DNA of 64,000 bases from an uncultured Chitinophaga sp. (GCF_902168175.1 NZ_CABHOU010000054.1:62001-126000), one strand, 5' to 3'. Counted from the stretch's first letter, positions 25,933 to 40,989 are shown. Translations and numbers: made by a program. The notes: generated by a model from the sequence alone, not told the origin.

Positions 25933-27651
25933 TCAGGCACTGAATCGGCGCTGGCGGACAAAGTTGAACACCATCGCGAACAAAAGCACCAGTCCGATCG
26001 GGATCGCAAAGGCCAGCAGTTGCCATTTGCCCCGCTGTTGTTTCACCTTTTCCGCATCGAGCAGTCGCAGTACCAGCTCGCGGTTGCGGGTTTCCATGAT
26101 GCCACTGGTATTGGTGAGGTACTCCAGGCTATTGGTGAAAAACTCCTTGTTGGCAAATACATACTCCTGGTTAAACTCGTTAACGCCCATTTGCAGGGGC
26201 CCATTTTTCTGTGAGTAAGCATTGGTGATAAAGTCGGCGCCGCCCACTACGATCATTTTATTGGGCTCGGTGGTTACAGAGCGGTAGGGTACGCCGGAGA
26301 GCTGCTGCACCATTTGAAGTTGCTTCGCACTCAGGCGGTGGTTGAACAGGGAGGTGAAGTTGCCCTCAAGCAACACCGCGGCCGGAATGCCGCTTTTCAT
26401 GAACTGGCGGGGATTGGCCTGCACTTTCATGTCTTCGAGGTTGATGCGTACGGGGGCATTTATAGTACGGCTACGTGCAGAAGAGGCCAGCAGTATGGTT
26501 TTGCGGATGCCTCCGCCAGTTATCGTGTCGATAGAGTTGGTGAACCTGCCCAGCACTACGTCCATATTTTTCACGATCGGGTGACCGCCGGTGGGCGTAA
26601 ACACGGGGAAAAAGGGGAAAGGCACTGGCTGGATCTGCGGTTTGTTATCGATGTTGCCTACGATCAGCGGCATTACATCGCTCTGCAAATCCTGTATGAG
26701 ATCGAGGTTTACACGCGCGCCGTAGCGGAAAAGGAGGTCTTCGAGTTCGAGGCCGCGGTTAAGGGCGACGAAGCTGTTGGCGGTGTGCAGACTGTCGGTA
26801 TCGGAAGTAAGGTTGCTGATGAACCAGATCACTTTCCCGCCATTCATCACGTACTGGTCGATCTTCAGTTTATCTTCTTCGGTAAAGGTTTCGAGTGGTT
26901 TTACAAATATGATGGTACCAAACTCGCGTGGAATAAAAGGATTCAGGCGAAGGTTAATCGTATCTAAGCGGTAGCTGAGTTGCAGCGTGCGAAGGGCGTC
27001 GTACACATTAGGGCCAACTGGTTCGCCATGGCCGAGCATATACCCAACCAGTGGTTTTTCATCGAGCGATAACTGGTAAATGGCGTTGGTAAAGCGGTAC
27101 TCCAGCATGGCGGCCGAACTGTTCAATGCCTGTAGTGGATCACTGCCAGGCTGCCCCTGTAGCAGGTTTACGCCCATTTCCCGGCCTTTGTAACGTAGTA
27201 AGGCACCGGGGAAGATGAGTTTTTCGGTGAGTCCTTCGCTGGCCTCCGCCTGCACCTGCAGGTTAAAAGGCATAATGCCCTTAGATACGAGAGAGTCCTG
27301 GTAAGCGAAACGCATACTGTCGGGCAGGTGAGCGCCGGGGGTAATAAAACGGAAACGTATGTTATTGCGGCCGTACTCCGAAAACTCTTCCAGCAACTCC
27401 CTGGTGCTTTGTGCCAGTTGGCGGAAGCCTGCGGGGTAGTCGCCTTTCAGGAACACGTCTATTTCCACCGGGGCGTCCAGGTTGCGTAGCAGTTGTTTGG
27501 TGGAGTTGGTGAGCGTGTAGCGTTTTTCGGCGGTGAGGTCCCAGCGGCGATGCAGGTAAGCGGCGCCGGAATTAACCGCCACCAGTACCAGCAGCACGAA
27601 GAACACGCGCTGTATATATTTCTTTCGTTTATTCCTGGTCGTAACTTCCAT
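25933..27651 (-). CDS. gldG: Gliding motility-associated ABC transporter component GldG
   Basis: A 572-residue protein with one N-terminal membrane segment (about residues 14-31), a long periplasmic region and a C-terminal membrane segment (about 545-563). RRWDLTAEKRYTLTNSTKQLL and the central DPLQALNSSAAMLEYRFTN segment match GldG. With GldF and the ATPase GldA it forms an ABC transporter tied to gliding motility in Bacteroidota, although it is dispensable in some species. It begins 18 bases after the gldF stop, as in other genomes; gldA is not in this window. Confidence 0.9.
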   Translation of the reverse strand: MEVTTRNKRKKYIQRVFFVLLVLVAVNSGAAYLHRRWDLTAEKRYTLTNSTKQLLRNLDAPVEIDVFLKGDYPAGFRQLAQSTRELLEEFSEYGRNNIRFRFITPGAHLPDSMRFAYQDSLVSKGIMPFNLQVQAEASEGLTEKLIFPGALLRYKGREMGVNLLQGQPGSDPLQALNSSAAMLEYRFTNAIYQLSLDEKPLVGYMLGHGEPVGPNVYDALRTLQLSYRLDTINLRLNPFIPREFGTIIFVKPLETFTEEDKLKIDQYVMNGGKVIWFISNLTSDTDSLHTANSFVALNRGLELEDLLFRYGARVNLDLIQDLQSDVMPLIVGNIDNKPQIQPVPFPFFPVFTPTGGHPIVKNMDVVLGRFTNSIDTITGGGIRKTILLASSARSRTINAPVRINLEDMKVQANPRQFMKSGIPAAVLLEGNFTSLFNHRLSAKQLQMVQQLSGVPYRSVTTEPNKMIVVGGADFITNAYSQKNGPLQMGVNEFNQEYVFANKEFFTNSLEYLTNTSGIMETRNRELVLRLLDAEKVKQQRGKWQLLAFAIPIGLVLLFAMVFNFVRQRRFSA

Positions 27652-27669
27652 GTAAGTATTGATATAACC

Positions 27670-28407
27670 TTATGCCTGCCATATCCTGCGCTGCAGCGAT
27701 ACTTTGGTGAGGTACAGCATAAAGCCGATAACACTGAAAAAGTAAATAATATCGCGGCTGTCTATCACCCCGCGGCTGATTGATTGGTAGTGGAAACTGA
27801 TACCGGCCATTTGCAGGTAGTAGTCTATGGTGCCGGTGAATACAGGCAGTTTGCTAAGGGCGTCGAAGCCGGTATACAAAATATAACAGGTAAACACAGC
27901 CACGAGAAAGGCCACCACCGCGTTAGAAGTGATGGACGATGCCCAGATGCCCACCGCCGTAAACGTGCAACCGAGTAACAAAAGGCCAATGTAAGAACCG
28001 ATAATGCCGCCTGTGTCGATAGTACCCGGAATAGCCGCCAGTTGCGATATAGCGATGTAATAAATAAAAGTGGGAATAAGCGAGATGAGTACGATCAGCA
28101 CGCAGGCCCAGTATTTACCCAGCACGATCTGCCAGCCAGAAAGCGGTTTTGTACTCAGTAATTCCATGGTGCCGCTCTTAAATTCGTCGGAAAGACTGCG
28201 CATGGTTATGGCCGGAATGAGCAGTAAAAAGATCATTGGCGCCAGTTCGAACAGCGGATCGAGATTGGCGTAACCCGCGTCCAGCAGGTTAGAATCTTTA
28301 AACACGAACAGAAACAGGCCGTTTGCCAGCAGGAACAGGATAATGGCAACATACCCGGTAATACTGCTGAAAAACTGGTGAATCTCTTTTTTGAATATAG
28401 CTAGCAT
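27670..28407 (-). CDS. gldF: Gliding motility-associated ABC transporter permease GldF
   Basis: A 245-residue permease with about six membrane segments, starting MLAIFKKEIHQFFSSITGYV, the usual GldF opening. SLSDEFKSGTMELLSTKPLSGWQIVLGKYWA is the ABC-2-type cytoplasmic coupling segment. The track start 42 bases upstream adds MHINCLVLRNFDSY, which is not family-like, so ATG 28407 is chosen. It is the first gene of a gldF-gldG operon. Confidence 0.9.
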   Translation of the reverse strand: MLAIFKKEIHQFFSSITGYVAIILFLLANGLFLFVFKDSNLLDAGYANLDPLFELAPMIFLLLIPAITMRSLSDEFKSGTMELLSTKPLSGWQIVLGKYWACVLIVLISLIPTFIYYIAISQLAAIPGTIDTGGIIGSYIGLLLLGCTFTAVGIWASSITSNAVVAFLVAVFTCYILYTGFDALSKLPVFTGTIDYYLQMAGISFHYQSISRGVIDSRDIIYFFSVIGFMLYLTKVSLQRRIWQA

Positions 28408-28470
28408 GTAAGAATCAAAGTTGCGTAAAACTAAACAGTTTATGTGCAAGCTACAAATTAACTTTAAAAA

Positions 28471-30456: not shown

Positions 30457-30966
30457 TTATAATCCTGTTGTACTAAAAATTACTGTTGCTGTGTAGTCGC
30501 CTGCTGGCTTTAGCAGATGTGTGCCGCCTTTCATGGTGTAACGGAAGTTGAAGTTGGCCAGGAGTGCCAGCACGCCAGAGGCTATTGTCTGGTTATTGGT
30601 GGTTAAAGTGATAACGCCGGTGCCAAATGAGGCACCCACCACCTGCACCGTTACGTTGCTGATGGCGATCGTATTGGTGCCGCTGGTAAGGTTGGCTGTG
30701 GCGGCGCGTACGGAAACCGTCCAGGCAAGGCCGAGTGTAAGTACAATGCTGCTGGGCGCATCAGAGAATTTACCGTTCTGATAATCGGCAGGGGTACTGA
30801 ATGTCATTATTGGCGGACTGCTGGTGGTGAAACCCAGGAAGTCGGACTCGTCGTGAATGCTGGTCGATGACTGCGGGCCACCTTCAGATTGGGCAAAGGA
30901 ATGTAGTGGCAGCCAAATCATCAAACCGGTGATGCATAATTTATATCTGCTTCGCAGCCATTTCAT
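30457..30966 (-). CDS. Secreted subunit-like protein, paralogue of the 31887 gene
   Basis: A 169-residue protein with a signal peptide (hydrophobic to about residue 25, ending HSFAQ). The mature part is Thr/Ser/Val-rich and beta-predicted. It shares with the 31887 product the segments SGTNTIAISNVTVQ (there NGTNTIPVSNVKVQ) and KPAGDYTATVIFS (there KPAGDYVTTITFS), plus the (A/T)xADYxNG element near its N-terminus. It therefore looks like a paralogous structural subunit. Its start overlaps the stop of the chaperone-like gene by 4 bases, so the two are translationally coupled. It has an extra acidic N-terminal stretch (DESDF), and could be a tip or minor subunit; no database family was recognised. 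Confidence 0.7.
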   Translation of the reverse strand: MKWLRSRYKLCITGLMIWLPLHSFAQSEGGPQSSTSIHDESDFLGFTTSSPPIMTFSTPADYQNGKFSDAPSSIVLTLGLAWTVSVRAATANLTSGTNTIAISNVTVQVVGASFGTGVITLTTNNQTIASGVLALLANFNFRYTMKGGTHLLKPAGDYTATVIFSTTGL

Positions 30967-31781
30967 TTACTGTGATTGAACTCTAGTTCTCCTATGCGTA
31001 AAGGCACGTCCGGACCATTATCCACGATGGCGACTGCCAGGTAGTTGCCTTTTTTTAACGAGGTGGGTAAATTAAAACGGATAATACGCCGTACGCCGGG
31101 TAATGTTGGTACTGGTAGTGCTTCCAGCTTTATCTCTTCTGCGGTTTCCTGATTTGTTAATTCCAGTTTTACGGTACTCTCCGACATGATTTCTCCTTTG
31201 TTCTTCAACACCAGTTCCAGTAAATGTTTGGCAGAGTCGTTTACCTGTTGCCAGCCCGCATCTTTAAAATCTATAAGTTCTACCTCTTTTTTACTGAGCG
31301 TTGGTGGCGTGTAATATACATGGATACCTACTTCCAGCCGTACGATCATGCTCGCCCCGGTTTTTTTCTGCTGCCGGATGCTTTCATCATCTTCCGCCTG
31401 TGTAAAAAAGATCATAGCATTGCGTACTGTATTACCCGAACCAGGCGGCGATACAAGTTTAACCGGTATTACTTTTTCCTCACCAGGCTGTAAAAGGATA
31501 CTACTGTAAGGCAACTCTATCCAGCTGGCGCAGGATTGATGTAAAGTATTGGGTTTAAAATATTGTTTCTCCCCAAGGCTGTCGCGATACCAGTCGGCCA
31601 GCGTAATACTGAACACCATAGCGCTTTTTCCAGGATTGATAATCCTGATTTCCTGCGTACTGGCCTGCCCTTGTGTGAAAGAATAAAACAATCGTGAAGG
31701 GGCAACCGACACAGCAGGTTGTGCCTGTGTGAAGTGCGCGCTCAGGCAGTATAATAATATAAATAACGCAGACTTATTCAT
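30963..31781 (-). CDS. PapD-like periplasmic chaperone
   Basis: A 272-residue protein with a signal peptide (LLYCLSAHFTQAQ) and two Ig-like halves. The first half (VAPSRLFYSFTQGQASTQEI...GKSAMVFSITLADW...LQPGEEKVIPVKL...NTVRNAMIFFTQ) has the strand order and the alternating hydrophobic G1-like strand of PapD/fimbrial chaperones. The second half is a further beta-sandwich ending in RIGELEF. In chaperone-usher systems such proteins bind pilus subunits by donor-strand complementation in the periplasm. Its position, 4-base overlapped with one subunit-like gene and 105 bases from another, supports that role. The call is by architecture, not by a family hit. Confidence 0.65.
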   Translation of the reverse strand: MNKSALFILLYCLSAHFTQAQPAVSVAPSRLFYSFTQGQASTQEIRIINPGKSAMVFSITLADWYRDSLGEKQYFKPNTLHQSCASWIELPYSSILLQPGEEKVIPVKLVSPPGSGNTVRNAMIFFTQAEDDESIRQQKKTGASMIVRLEVGIHVYYTPPTLSKKEVELIDFKDAGWQQVNDSAKHLLELVLKNKGEIMSESTVKLELTNQETAEEIKLEALPVPTLPGVRRIIRFNLPTSLKKGNYLAVAIVDNGPDVPLRIGELEFNHSK

Positions 31782-31886
31782 GGATACCAGGTTACGGTTT
31801 TTGAGGTTTGAGCAATAATATATCTGTACTGCAGGTTAGGTGTATACTTGCAGAGGTATAGGAAACAGTATTGTCTTAAAAGCTAA

Positions 31887-32399
31887 CTATCCAGCCGTAG
31901 CAGAAAACGTAATTGTTGTAACATAATCGCCGGCCGGTTTGCCGATAAAAGCTGCATTGTTAGCATCCGTACTGTACTGAAGATTAATGTTCTTCAATAT
32001 TGCGGCCGGTGCGCTGGTAACAATATTTTGATCGGTAGTGGAAAGCGATACCTGCGTAGCAGTGCCAATACCTGTAGTGCCTGTAGGCTGCACTTTCACA
32101 TTCGATACGGGAATGGTGTTAGTACCATTTACAAGGTCGGCACTGGCCGATCTTACTTTAACAGTATAGGCAGATGTACTGGTTACTGTTAACGCGTTCG
32201 CATAAGTAACGGTTACGCCGTTCGCATAATCGGCAGCAGTGGCAAATACCAATGTAGGATTGGTTTCGTTCACTGTCATCACTAATACTGATGTTAATCG
32301 TACAGTCAAAGTAGCGTTTTGTGCTGACGCTTTCTGGCTTACTGCAAGGCCCGCAAATGCAATGAATAACACGGAGAGAACTTTAATCGGGTTCCTCAT
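31887..32399 (-). CDS. Secreted subunit-like protein, probable major subunit
   Basis: A 170-residue protein with a clear signal peptide (MRNPIKVLSVLFIAFAGLAVSQKASAQ) if started at ATG 32399; the track start is a TTG 36 bases upstream. The mature protein is small, Thr/Val/Ala-rich, lacks Cys and is beta-strand-like throughout, and it ends with a Thr-rich strand (YVTTITFSATAG). It has clear similarity to the 30457 product (see there). Gene order subunit - chaperone - subunit on one strand with a divergent barrel gene suggests that it is exported with, and assembled by, those partners. No known pilin family was recognised. Confidence 0.7.
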   Translation of the reverse strand: MRNPIKVLSVLFIAFAGLAVSQKASAQNATLTVRLTSVLVMTVNETNPTLVFATAADYANGVTVTYANALTVTSTSAYTVKVRSASADLVNGTNTIPVSNVKVQPTGTTGIGTATQVSLSTTDQNIVTSAPAAILKNINLQYSTDANNAAFIGKPAGDYVTTITFSATAG

Positions 32400-32491
32400 A
32401 AGACGAAAATTTAAGTGTATTGATATGTGGTTCAAATTAGGTTTTTTATTGAAAAATATAAATTACATTTACCGCAATCAACCTGCCGAAT

Positions 32492-35263
32492 ATGCCCCGT
32501 AGCTTTCGTTTCAAGCTATTGATGTTATGTTACCCATTACTTTTTTCCGGGATGAAAATGCTGGGGCAGGTCTCACTTCGCTTTGAAAAAGAGGTGTTAA
32601 ATGTTAAGTCCGGACAAACCGTTACAACAAAACTTCATCTTAGCAATTCCTTTACAGATACGCTTTCTGGCCGATTGGTTTTAACGGCAGAAGGTGTGCT
32701 GTTGCTCAGCAGTGCTGTGAAAGAAATTAAGCTCGCGCCCGGTGAAGAGCGAACATTTGCAGTAAAGTTTTTCGCAAAGGAAGCGTTAAGTAATAACGAT
32801 AACAGCAGTTGCACCGCAGCGTTTACTTCGGTCGTCATTAACACTGGCTTAACAAAAAAGTTACGCTTCGTGGTGGAGCGGAAAAGACGTATCGTTTTAA
32901 TACCGCAAGAGCTCCCCGTTGTGATACATTCACCGCAGGATACGGTGCGCTGGAGGGTGCAGATCATGAACAGAGGTAATAGCAATGAACAGTTGCATTT
33001 GCAGTACAGTGCTATGCCTGGCGGCTTTCGCTTTATAGAAACACCCTTTCCTTTTTTATTAAGAAGTGGAGAAGATACCACCGTTATCGTAAGGGCTTTG
33101 CCTGACCAACAACTCAACATTGTACAGAAGCCGCAGATCAGCATTACGGTAAATAGTCCCAATAACGTTTTATTAGCATCTGCCTACTGCATGCCTTTAT
33201 TAGTAACAAGTCGTTACTCCGATCGTGGGCAGGACCTTATGCTACAGGGTAATTATTTAGATTTGAGCGCACGTAATCTTTATACAGGCACACCTTACCA
33301 GGAAGCAACACTTTTCTCCTCTCACACTAATGGAAGTAATGCGCTGGATATAAAACTGCAGGGCTTATATTTTTTTAATCAGCAGCAATCGTTGTTAAGC
33401 GATAGTTACATTTATCTTAAACAAGGCCGTTTCTTCGCTAAGGCGGGCAACATCAGTGCCTTGCAGGAGGTAATGATAAATGGGCAGGGCGGGTATGCAG
33501 GTGCAGAAATAAGTAAAGGTTTTACTGCGGCCTATACTTATTTGCACGACAATAGCAACCAGTTAAGATTTAATACGGAGAAGAATACCGTTAATGTGCC
33601 GCGTGTAACCACGCATGCAGTGGATATCGATTTCCGGAAAGAAGAAGGTTTCAGTTTTCATTCGCAATTCGTGCATCGCAATGATCCGCGTGATGGCGTT
33701 GTATCGCGACTGGGCTCCTTTAGTTTTAATTACCGGGATAAGGAGTTGATAAATTTACAGGGCGTGGTAGGTCTGAGTGATGAAACGATGGACACTACAG
33801 GCAGGCGATATGCAGCCGGTGCCGGCGGACTGGATATCACTGGCGCCGCGGGCCGCTTCTCCTGGATATCGTCGGCTTATGTATCAGGTAAGCGTTATGC
33901 GGGTTATAGAAGAGGTTTTCGCTTTTTCGACGAACGTTTCGGTATGCAGCTCACGGACAGGGTGGAGTTAGCAGTAAGATATTATCAACAGGCCAATGCG
34001 CCAGAGCTACTCAACCCGGTGCTTTATAGTTTTCTTCCGGAAAGTGATGAACAACAGTCGGCCGAATTTTCAGCGCGGATGGTGCTGACGAAAAACTTCA
34101 CGGTTACAGTAAGGCCTTACCGCAACTGGCAGGATGTGGACTACAGGGCGCAGGTGTTGCCGCATTATAAATCTACCAGTAACCGCGCAGCGGTCGACTT
34201 TCAACTGCAGTCTTCCTCGGGCTTCTTCGCCACTGCCACTTACGATATTGGCAGCACGCGTTATGATATAGACGGCGTAAAAGCAAACGTATTCCAGTCG
34301 CATAAAATGAACCTTAACATTGGTTTTAACTGGTTGTCATTTTCAGGGTGGGGGCAAATAGGTCCTTATTATTTGCGGGAATATGCTAACATGGACATTG
34401 TGTACCAGTCGTACCGTAATTTCCAGTTTGGTCCTATGATGCAGCGAAGCCTGTTCGCCGGTAAATTACAGTTGATGGCCAGCGCCCAGTGGTTGTACCA
34501 GGACCTGTTACCAGGCTGGCTCACCAGTTATGTGGCCCGCGCCGCCTGGCAGCCTGCAAAACATTTGTTGCTGCACGCCGACTATTCCCTGTTCGCTCCC
34601 GGCCGTTACGACTTTTCCAATCTGGGAGCAGGAGTAAGTTACCTTTTCAGCAAACCGGTAGGTACACCAAGAGCCGCCAGGTTCCATTTATCATTTTATG
34701 AGGACAGGAATAACAATAACATCAGGGATGGGGGAGAGCCAGGCCTTAAAGGTGTTGTCGTTCGGATTAATGGCAACGGTATGGTGTCTGACGGGGATGG
34801 GAGGATCGTGTTTGAGAGCGGGGAGAAGGAGCAGCGTATTGCGGATGTAGCGGCTCCGGCCGGCTGGATGACCGAGCCCCGGTTGTTGCTGCCGGAACAG
34901 CGTGGCCTTAAAGTATTGGCCGTTTCCATGAAAAAGAGCGCCGGTATTGCCGGACAGGTACAATGGGAAAAGGGCCGGTACAGTCAATACAATAAAGCGC
35001 CCAACGGCTGGATTGTAGAAGCTGTTGGTGGTAATGGTAAACCATGTCAGGCCTATGTTTCGAATGATGGTAATTTCCGGCTCTGGCTGCCTCCCGGAGT
35101 GTATGATGTTACGCTTAAGCAGGTGCAGCCCACCGGTTACTTTGAAGGCGTGCCTGCCCAAACCATTATCCTGCGGGGAAATGAGGAAGCGCAGGTGAAA
35201 TTCCTCGTTAAGGAAAACAACGGTGGGGCGATAATTAAACACTTTGGGAAAGCAAACCAATAA
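32492..35263 (+). CDS. Usher-like outer-membrane beta-barrel protein
   Basis: A 923-residue secreted protein. Residues 1-~26 form a signal peptide. Residues ~27-245 contain two Ig-like beta-sandwich segments (LAPGEERTFAVKF; LRSGEDTTVIVRALP). Residues ~250-735 form many alternating strands rich in Tyr, Phe, Arg and Asp, as in a large outer-membrane barrel. Residues ~735-748 hold a Ca-loop-like segment DRNNNNIRDGGE opening an SdrD-B-type domain. A final carboxypeptidase-regulatory-like sandwich (about 815-910) contains LWLPPGVYDVTLKQV. N-terminal sandwich, barrel and two C-terminal sandwiches is the layout of a chaperone-usher secretin. It diverges from the chaperone/subunit genes across 92 bases. 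No PapC-type sequence motif was recognised, so this is an inference from architecture. Confidence 0.6.
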   Translation: MPRSFRFKLLMLCYPLLFSGMKMLGQVSLRFEKEVLNVKSGQTVTTKLHLSNSFTDTLSGRLVLTAEGVLLLSSAVKEIKLAPGEERTFAVKFFAKEALSNNDNSSCTAAFTSVVINTGLTKKLRFVVERKRRIVLIPQELPVVIHSPQDTVRWRVQIMNRGNSNEQLHLQYSAMPGGFRFIETPFPFLLRSGEDTTVIVRALPDQQLNIVQKPQISITVNSPNNVLLASAYCMPLLVTSRYSDRGQDLMLQGNYLDLSARNLYTGTPYQEATLFSSHTNGSNALDIKLQGLYFFNQQQSLLSDSYIYLKQGRFFAKAGNISALQEVMINGQGGYAGAEISKGFTAAYTYLHDNSNQLRFNTEKNTVNVPRVTTHAVDIDFRKEEGFSFHSQFVHRNDPRDGVVSRLGSFSFNYRDKELINLQGVVGLSDETMDTTGRRYAAGAGGLDITGAAGRFSWISSAYVSGKRYAGYRRGFRFFDERFGMQLTDRVELAVRYYQQANAPELLNPVLYSFLPESDEQQSAEFSARMVLTKNFTVTVRPYRNWQDVDYRAQVLPHYKSTSNRAAVDFQLQSSSGFFATATYDIGSTRYDIDGVKANVFQSHKMNLNIGFNWLSFSGWGQIGPYYLREYANMDIVYQSYRNFQFGPMMQRSLFAGKLQLMASAQWLYQDLLPGWLTSYVARAAWQPAKHLLLHADYSLFAPGRYDFSNLGAGVSYLFSKPVGTPRAARFHLSFYEDRNNNNIRDGGEPGLKGVVVRINGNGMVSDGDGRIVFESGEKEQRIADVAAPAGWMTEPRLLLPEQRGLKVLAVSMKKSAGIAGQVQWEKGRYSQYNKAPNGWIVEAVGGNGKPCQAYVSNDGNFRLWLPPGVYDVTLKQVQPTGYFEGVPAQTIILRGNEEAQVKFLVKENNGGAIIKHFGKANQ

Positions 35264-39933: not shown

Positions 39934-40989
39934 TTATTTCGGTCTGTACTTCGATTCGTTAAAGATCTGCACCGCGTCTTTGTTTTCCATTAACTGCGCC
40001 AGTGTTACTTCGGGGTGTTTCTCCATGTAACGTTGTACAATGCGGCTGCCTACATAAGCGCCTATTTTGCCTGGCGAGCCTGGCGGCATGCCCTGCGTAC
40101 TCGGCCCTTCGCCCATAAAGTGCATCAACTGTTGCCAGTCGGAGGAGTACAACAGGTTTTGCTGTACAAAGAACTGCCATACCAATTCCTCGTTGGCGTT
40201 ACACCAGTCGAGCTGGGCCTGTGTATAACCAATGCGCAGCGTATCGCCGGTATCAGGCAGTACTTTGGAAAGGAAGTATTGCTGCCTGCCCGCATCTACC
40301 ATCTGTTCTATCAGTTTACGGCCTTCTGCCGGACGGGGGAATAAATCCTGTTCTATTACTTTCATCACATTCACTGGTATATACTCCGGCTCAAACGTCC
40401 TTACAAGGTAAGATGGTAACTCCTGCGACAACATGGCGTATACCGGGAAGTCTTTGCCCAGGTACATGTCCAGGCCAATGGCCACCGTTGAATCTACCGT
40501 AAGCGCACCATAGTTGCCGATGGCAGACATAAAGGTTTTTACTTTGGGGGGATGAAAGGAAGGGATGTAATACTTTGTGTAACGAAAGGCCTGTGCCAAC
40601 GCTTCTTCTGTTTTATCGAGCGATTTAAAATGCACATTGATACTGTCCTGCAGGCCTTTAAAATCGGGGTTGGTGAGGAAGGCGCGTAGGGCGTGTTGCA
40701 CCAGCTCCATATCCACCGTAGTATCACCTATTGGCCCGAAGTTGAGGATGTGCTGAAAGTAAAATGGCATAAAGCGCGGATGCTTGTCGGCCAGCAATTT
40801 TAAGCCACCTGCTACGTTATTGGTATCGATATTAAAAAAATCCTGGTCGAACCGCTCGGCCTTTACCGTCATTGGGATGTGGCTTACATCGGGTGCTTTA
40901 GTGCCACTACCGCAACTGTTAAGCATCACCAAAAGAGTAAAGGACGATATTAACAGGCGCAGGATATTTTTATTGAAGTAACTTTGCAT
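39934..40989 (-). CDS. gldB: Gliding motility lipoprotein GldB
   Basis: A 351-residue lipoprotein (lipobox LNSC, C26). VKAERFDQDFFNIDTNN, FMPFYFQHILNFGP, YTKYYIPSFHPPKVKTF and GDTLRIGYTQAQLDWCNANEELVWQFF match GldB, an essential gliding-motility protein thought to sit in the envelope and, in some species, to be required for viability. The neighbour nadE two genes away is conserved in other Bacteroidota, which supports the call. The usual partner gldC is not adjacent here. Confidence 0.85.
   Translation of the reverse strand: MQSYFNKNILRLLISSFTLLVMLNSCGSGTKAPDVSHIPMTVKAERFDQDFFNIDTNNVAGGLKLLADKHPRFMPFYFQHILNFGPIGDTTVDMELVQHALRAFLTNPDFKGLQDSINVHFKSLDKTEEALAQAFRYTKYYIPSFHPPKVKTFMSAIGNYGALTVDSTVAIGLDMYLGKDFPVYAMLSQELPSYLVRTFEPEYIPVNVMKVIEQDLFPRPAEGRKLIEQMVDAGRQQYFLSKVLPDTGDTLRIGYTQAQLDWCNANEELVWQFFVQQNLLYSSDWQQLMHFMGEGPSTQGMPPGSPGKIGAYVGSRIVQRYMEKHPEVTLAQLMENKDAVQIFNESKYRPK
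40979..40986 (+). promoter_or_regulatory. -7 element upstream of the PorT-like gene
   Basis: TAACTTTG, an exact TAnnTTTG match 20 bases before the ATG at 41007. It overlaps the start of the divergent gldB gene. Confidence 0.4.

Follow-up and report, generated by a model that had tools for sequence, protein, structure and literature searches.

A locus of an uncultured Chitinophaga likely to encode a highly diverged chaperone-usher-type pilus

The locus comprises four adjacent genes in the window, by which we mean the whole 64-kb stretch of Chitinophaga DNA that was analysed. Three of them lie on the minus strand: a second putative pilin of 169 aa and candidate tip or initiator (30457..30966), a putative two-Ig-domain periplasmic chaperone of 272 aa (30963..31781), and a putative stem-type pilin (31887..32399, with a likely ATG at 32399 in an ORF of 182 aa that extends to 32435). 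The fourth, on the plus strand, encodes a 923-aa predicted outer-membrane barrel protein and candidate usher-like translocon (32492..35263). The chaperone was assigned by a match to the WxL-interacting protein (WxLIP) family and by hhalign to E. coli chaperones, the stem-type pilin and the barrel protein by AF2 and Foldseek, and the second pilin by its leader (SEGGPQSSTSIHDESDFLGFTTSSPP) and a Gly at -14. An intergenic stretch of 92 bp (32400..32491) divides the divergent pilin-chaperone-pilin genes from the barrel gene and probably holds divergent promoters, which were not shown; a promoter/terminator consensus scan of this region came out close to shuffles and no better than them, and no Rfam elements were found in the 64-kb window. 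A preliminary description, made from sequence alone, had claimed four adjacent secreted-protein genes at 30457-35263 and a 4-base overlap of the chaperone gene with one subunit gene. Both claims held: the ORFs are present, all four translations (4/4, read by eye) open with a signal-peptide-like start ending in ...AQ or ...GQ and without a lipobox, and the chaperone stop overlaps the start of the 30457 subunit at 30963-30966.

The locus is flanked by methylmalonyl-CoA epimerase and murF, an arrangement also found in a congener (L032). Nearby, to both sides, are the gliding-motility genes gldG, gldF and gldB (window 25933-28449 and 39934-40989). The nearest named relative is Chitinophaga sedimenti, whose chaperone is 72% identical. 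Its barrel homologue (L140 6534-9262) is broken into two open frames of 788 and 122 aa and the subunit frame beside it is short, as would be seen with either an inactivated gene or a sequencing error. Single-sequence searches of Pfam, NCBIfam and PDB with the window proteins returned no significant match, no PF00577 usher was found in the source genome, and the chaperone is present there in a single copy. The parts of the proposed system are too diverged for standard family models to recognise.

The 30457 and 31887 products are homologous (phmmer E = 3e-21), and the GTNTI and KPAGDY segments that had been noted as common to them (SGTNTIAISNV / NGTNTIPVSNV, and KPAGDY) are indeed shared. An AF2 model of the 31887 product, which began at ORF residue 14 (Arg) without an initiator Met, an immaterial difference, reached a pLDDT of 87.8 and left the N-terminal strand unpaired. 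When this model was compared with the PDB using Foldseek, TLP-1a ranked first, followed by CfaB, CsuA/B, FimA, FimF/G/H and PapA, and nearly all of the top 50 matches were chaperone-usher (CU) pilins; the scores were modest (E 1e-4 to 1e-2, TM-scores 0.3-0.6) and the matches strikingly consistent. The 31887 pilin (minus strand) is thus predicted to have an incomplete Ig core, and it carries an N-terminal donor strand (QNATLTVRLTSVLVMTV) and a Gly at -14 from the C-terminus. CU pilins are known to carry this C-terminal Gly-14. Among relatives of the subunits, Gly occupied exactly the -14 position in 190/253, compared with 26/280 other proteins of similar length, and Tyr occupied -12 in 225/253 compared with 22/280. 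Gly at -14 is also found in E. coli FimA/F/G/I and in 27/36 DUF4402-type pilins. If a chaperone anchors the carboxylate, just such a constant distance from the C-terminus is predicted. The subunit family does not conserve the Tyr that is penultimate in CU pilins and has aromatics at -6 and -12 instead. The subunits meet what defines a CU pilin, namely an incomplete Ig fold, an N-terminal donor strand and a C-terminal Gly-14; the last two signatures are shown and the fold is predicted by the model. A direct profile match between the subunits and E. coli pilins (apparently 42-89%) disappeared after the signal peptides were trimmed, and was therefore not used as evidence.

Leader length, measured from the mature N-terminus to the core, was bimodal across the subunit family (51 short and 177 long, with none at 22-25). 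Exactly one short-leader subunit was present in 45 of the 94 loci scored, two in 3 and none in 46, and 44/45 loci with a single short leader also held long-leader subunits. The 46 loci without a short leader were counted by an automatic measure, and some tip candidates were multi-domain or unparsed. The same measure scored the 30457 subunit as long-leader; that it lacks a donor strand was judged by eye, its leader (SEGGPQSSTSIHDESDFLGFTTSSPP) showing no alternating hydrophobic residues. In some loci a protein of 310-514 aa with two or three subunit domains adjoins the chaperone, and such a protein could be a multi-domain tip adhesin. Upstream of the chaperone, L093-L097 carry as many as five tandem, near-alike stem-type subunit genes.

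The chaperone alignment profile matched EfmWxLIP1 in the PDB (E 5.6e-8, 221 residues, both domains; 8.7e-6 with a broader chaperone alignment), which is the nearest solved relative of the chaperone, and homology is thereby shown. WxLIP has been predicted to complete a WxL sandwich by a strand (PMC10599100). Against E. coli K-12 chaperones, hhalign gave 91.7% over 197 columns, co-linear with FimC, whereas reversed and shuffled profile controls reached ≤1.4%; the alignment to FimC spans both domains and includes the C-terminal [IL]xDxG motif. A two-Ig periplasmic chaperone of the PapD family is thus the likely identity, supported by co-linear profiles and WxLIP homology and not by a structure model. 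FimC R8 corresponds to Arg30 and FimC K112 to His154 in the window chaperone; His replaces K112 in 77/92 chaperones, and the canonical basic pair (positions 8 and 112) is kept in 10 loci of the family. A penultimate Gln was found in 94/168 pilins paired with a chaperone non-basic at position 8 versus 3/80 with a basic one (Fisher 1e-17). The test is confounded by phylogeny and relatedness inflates its significance, but such covariation would be expected of residues in contact. Chaperones of the window group matched PapD_N in 6/29 cases, against 15/27 in a Bacteroidota group adjoining DUF4402 genes, and WxLIP in 18/29 against 7/27; compared with one another, the groups gave a match of 99.3%. 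The window chaperone itself has no PapD_N match in Pfam, and its translation ends at the second domain without a hydrophobic C-terminal helix. The family bridges the PapD_N and WxL-interacting-protein models, a tentative hint at one strand-donating superfamily.

The 923-aa protein was modelled by AF2 with moderate confidence (mean pLDDT 74.7, pTM 0.47). The predicted chain has a signal peptide, two Ig-like N-terminal sandwiches (aa 27-235), a barrel of ~26 strands (aa 255-718) and two TTR/Ig-like C-terminal sandwiches (aa 728-908; 728-826 and 840-908). The best PDB matches in Foldseek were FimD/PapC (5.8e-12, ~800 columns), with BtuB next in rank (6e-10) over the barrel portion alone; TM-scores were low (~0.3). 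The protein has no match to the Usher Pfam (PF00577), its model contains no plug-sized insertion, and neither a plug nor a TonB-barrel match was found among the Pfam families of 17 barrel members. At the level of sequence, the C-terminal domain pair alone clearly matches DUF4402-type ushers (99.1%). The barrel profile scored 95% over 179 columns against TonB receptors and 57% against ushers, where the match lay at the end of the barrel and in the C-terminal domain. Sequence similarity between the barrel core and ushers is not significant, and TonB receptors of the same genome scored equal to or above ushers against this core. We therefore do not claim direct usher homology: an untrimmed alignment to DUF4402-type ushers gave 99.8% over 793 columns, of which trimming left the barrel end and C-terminal domains, and TonB receptors taken as a control did as well as ushers. 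The canonical definition of an usher (PF00577, 24 strands, an inserted plug) is not met, while the architecture and top fold matches agree with one. The barrel is likely to work like an usher; membership of the usher family is not shown, and with a core that sequence cannot place among ushers, it may be a true usher or an independent replacement. The N-terminal Ig domains (aa 27-235) resemble the chaperone family (hhalign 87%) and could be a built-in docking domain.

The chaperone is present in 29/150 genomes of the same taxonomic family. A scan of GTDB genomes yielded 53 chaperone loci, all with subunits (53/53), and a barrel was found on the fetched stretch in 28/53, a count limited to the DNA fetched around the chaperone. 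A barrel-profile scan of the phylum recovered full-length relatives in several other families, and chaperone and subunits were present at 16/16 fetched full-length barrel loci from these families; a DNA-pattern scan using the barrel found no relatives. Where no barrel adjoined the chaperone, one was located elsewhere in the genome in 5/6 cases. In all, a full-length barrel was present in 9/10 genomes checked, the nine including five with none beside the chaperone locus; the genome without one is fragmented and 89% complete. The four-gene set is shown to recur across many genera, and its architecture is therefore not due to chance. For L036, L040, L043, L045 and L046, the genome has a barrel gene, but one unlinked from the chaperone and subunits. 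MAG records titled Williamsia, Azovibrio and Sphingomonadales (L144, L167, L189) carry a Bacteroidota-type locus and are probably mislabelled or contaminated bins.

A solved relative of the subunits is available. The subunit profile matches PDB 9ikk/9ikj (TLP-2/TLP-1) with an E of 3e-5, and the TLP fragment had one match among 396 genomes of the phylum, a subunit (L099) that lies beside a chaperone and a barrel and matches TLP-2 with a phmmer E of 4.9e-9. TLP-1a/TLP-1b (PDB 9ikj, 9ikk), homologous to the locus subunit and its top fold match, are deposited as a 16-chain cryo-EM assembly. It is likely that a member of the subunit family has already been seen as a filament, the filament being inferred from these entries.

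Together, we consider it likely (probability about 0.8) that the locus encodes a highly diverged chaperone-usher-type pilus. Export through the barrel, strand exchange, the tip and stem roles and a surface pilus in the organism are all inferred, and there are no expression or microscopy data. In the proposed assembly, the four proteins would reach the periplasm via Sec, where the first Ig domain of the chaperone would donate a β-strand to each small protein and so complete its strand-deficient Ig fold; the last 14 pilin residues would be held in a fixed register set by the C-terminal carboxylate. Chaperone-pilin complexes would then move to the 923-aa barrel at the outer membrane, where its Ig-like periplasmic domains would dock them. 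By donor-strand exchange, each incoming pilin would displace the chaperone strand with its own N-terminal strand, and the chain would exit via the barrel. The 30457 subunit would form the tip because it is leaderless and able only to accept a strand, while the 31887 subunit would both donate and accept and so form the stem.

The preliminary description had inferred chaperone-usher-like export and assembly, and this was largely right, the pilus and export through the barrel being inferences still. The two PapD-type Ig halves it saw in the 272-residue protein are supported by profiles over both halves, without a model of the chaperone, and the sandwich-barrel-sandwich architecture of the 923-residue protein held in the moderate-confidence AF2 model. 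It had also named findings that would refute it. Conserved co-occurrence in relatives was tested and strongly upheld (53/53 loci with subunits; 16/16 barrel loci), and a many-stranded barrel with periplasmic sandwiches was borne out in the moderate-confidence AF2 model (~26 strands); PapD topology is supported by profiles co-linear with those of E. coli chaperones and by the homology with a solved WxLIP, again without a structure model. Its hedge that this may be a distant or independent branch is still right, as sequence cannot place the barrel core with ushers. The CU-pilin fold matches, Gly-14, the donor-strand and leaderless subunits and the multi-chain cryo-EM relative are new since then.

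Alternatively, the pilus could be the same and its barrel not an usher by descent, with another barrel (e.g. from TonB-receptor stock) fused to Ig and TTR domains. The core profile is nearer to TonB receptors (95%, 179 columns) than to ushers (57%), the model lacks a plug domain, and TTR domains occur in TonB receptors too. Against this, Foldseek ranks FimD/PapC first over ~800 columns while BtuB covers the barrel only, the C-terminal pair best matches DUF4402-type ushers (99.1%), and the TonB similarity of the core may be generic β-barrel likeness that same-phylum composition can inflate; on balance we lean slightly away from this alternative. A bolder reading, which we regard as no more than a possibility, combines an independently recruited translocon with a chaperone superfamily joining PapD and WxLIP, such that WxL clusters and CU pili share ancestry.

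Two other explanations dispense with the filament. In a WxL-like display system, the WxLIP-like protein would stay bound and anchor the small proteins to the surface or peptidoglycan; EfmWxLIP1 is the nearest solved relative of the chaperone (E 5.6e-8), and WxL clusters likewise pair a single WxLIP with both small and large substrate proteins (PMC10599100). However, the subunits have no WxL match in Pfam and those of the window no paired WxL motifs, the chaperone lacks a C-terminal transmembrane helix, the subunits resemble CU pilins and a filament-type entry, and an outer-membrane barrel always co-occurs, making this explanation unlikely. We give still less credence to a barrel that secretes monomeric adhesins or matrix proteins without polymerisation. 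Polymerisation is itself inferred, and some loci encode multi-domain subunits of 300-500 aa, but the donor strands and the split into leaderless and leader-bearing subunits suit chain assembly, and the homologue TLP was deposited as a 16-chain cryo-EM assembly. A type V pilus was rejected, as the translations contain no lipobox and no FimA/Mfa family match was found.

Compared with CU pili (FimACDFGH, CsuA/BABCDE, CfaABCE), the diverged CU-type locus proposed here has the same two-Ig chaperone, strand-deficient pilins with a donor strand and Gly-14, clustered genes, a tip-like subunit that is leaderless, and a large barrel whose sandwiches are periplasmic and C-terminal. It differs in that its barrel protein has a core without significant similarity, no plug and an Ig-type rather than usher-type N-terminal domain, in that window-type chaperones have His for K112, and in that window-type pilins lack the penultimate Tyr. 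Plug and TonB-barrel family matches, which mark TonB-dependent receptors, are absent from the window-type barrel despite the profile similarity of the core. The WxL/WxLIP clusters of Firmicutes resemble the locus in that both domains of their WxLIP are homologous to those of the chaperone and in that a single WxLIP accompanies substrates small and large, but they are Gram-positive, have a transmembrane anchor and a WxL motif, and lack a barrel. Type V pili (FimA/Mfa1) of Bacteroidia are surface fimbriae of Bacteroidota that are assembled by strand complementation; unlike the window locus, they have lipoprotein precursors, no PapD-like chaperone and no barrel.

What is understood of Bacteroidota fimbriae comes almost entirely from the type V pili of species from the gut and mouth. 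Reported hosts of archaic CU systems, the most widespread branch, are Proteobacteria, Cyanobacteria and Deinococcus-Thermus (PMC4654587), Bacteroidota not being among them, and we found no description of a CU system in Bacteroidota in the open-access literature searched. The locus offers a candidate pilus, invisible to family models, for environmental genera (Chitinophaga, Mucilaginibacter, Pedobacter, Niastella, Flavipsychrobacter and others). Chaperone-assisted donor-strand assembly would reach another phylum, PapD-type chaperones would be linked to the WxL-interacting proteins of Firmicutes, and a plug-less, non-canonical barrel as a pilus translocon becomes testable.

A set of DUF4402-pilin loci from Bacteroidota and their relatives (L108-L111, L120-L139) resembles the window locus in its homologous chaperone, barrel C-terminal domains and Gly-14 pilins, but differs in that its pilins are of PF14352 type with a penultimate Tyr and its barrels are recognisably usher (98.6% over 594 columns against E. 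coli ushers, with one matching PF00577 at 3e-4). Together with L056-L059, these loci represent a second pilus-like system of Bacteroidota, with PF14352 (DUF4402) pilins, a PapD_N-like chaperone and an usher-related barrel, the latter two below family cut-offs. Some of its loci add secreted proteins of 1100-2950 aa or a conserved protein of ~620 aa.
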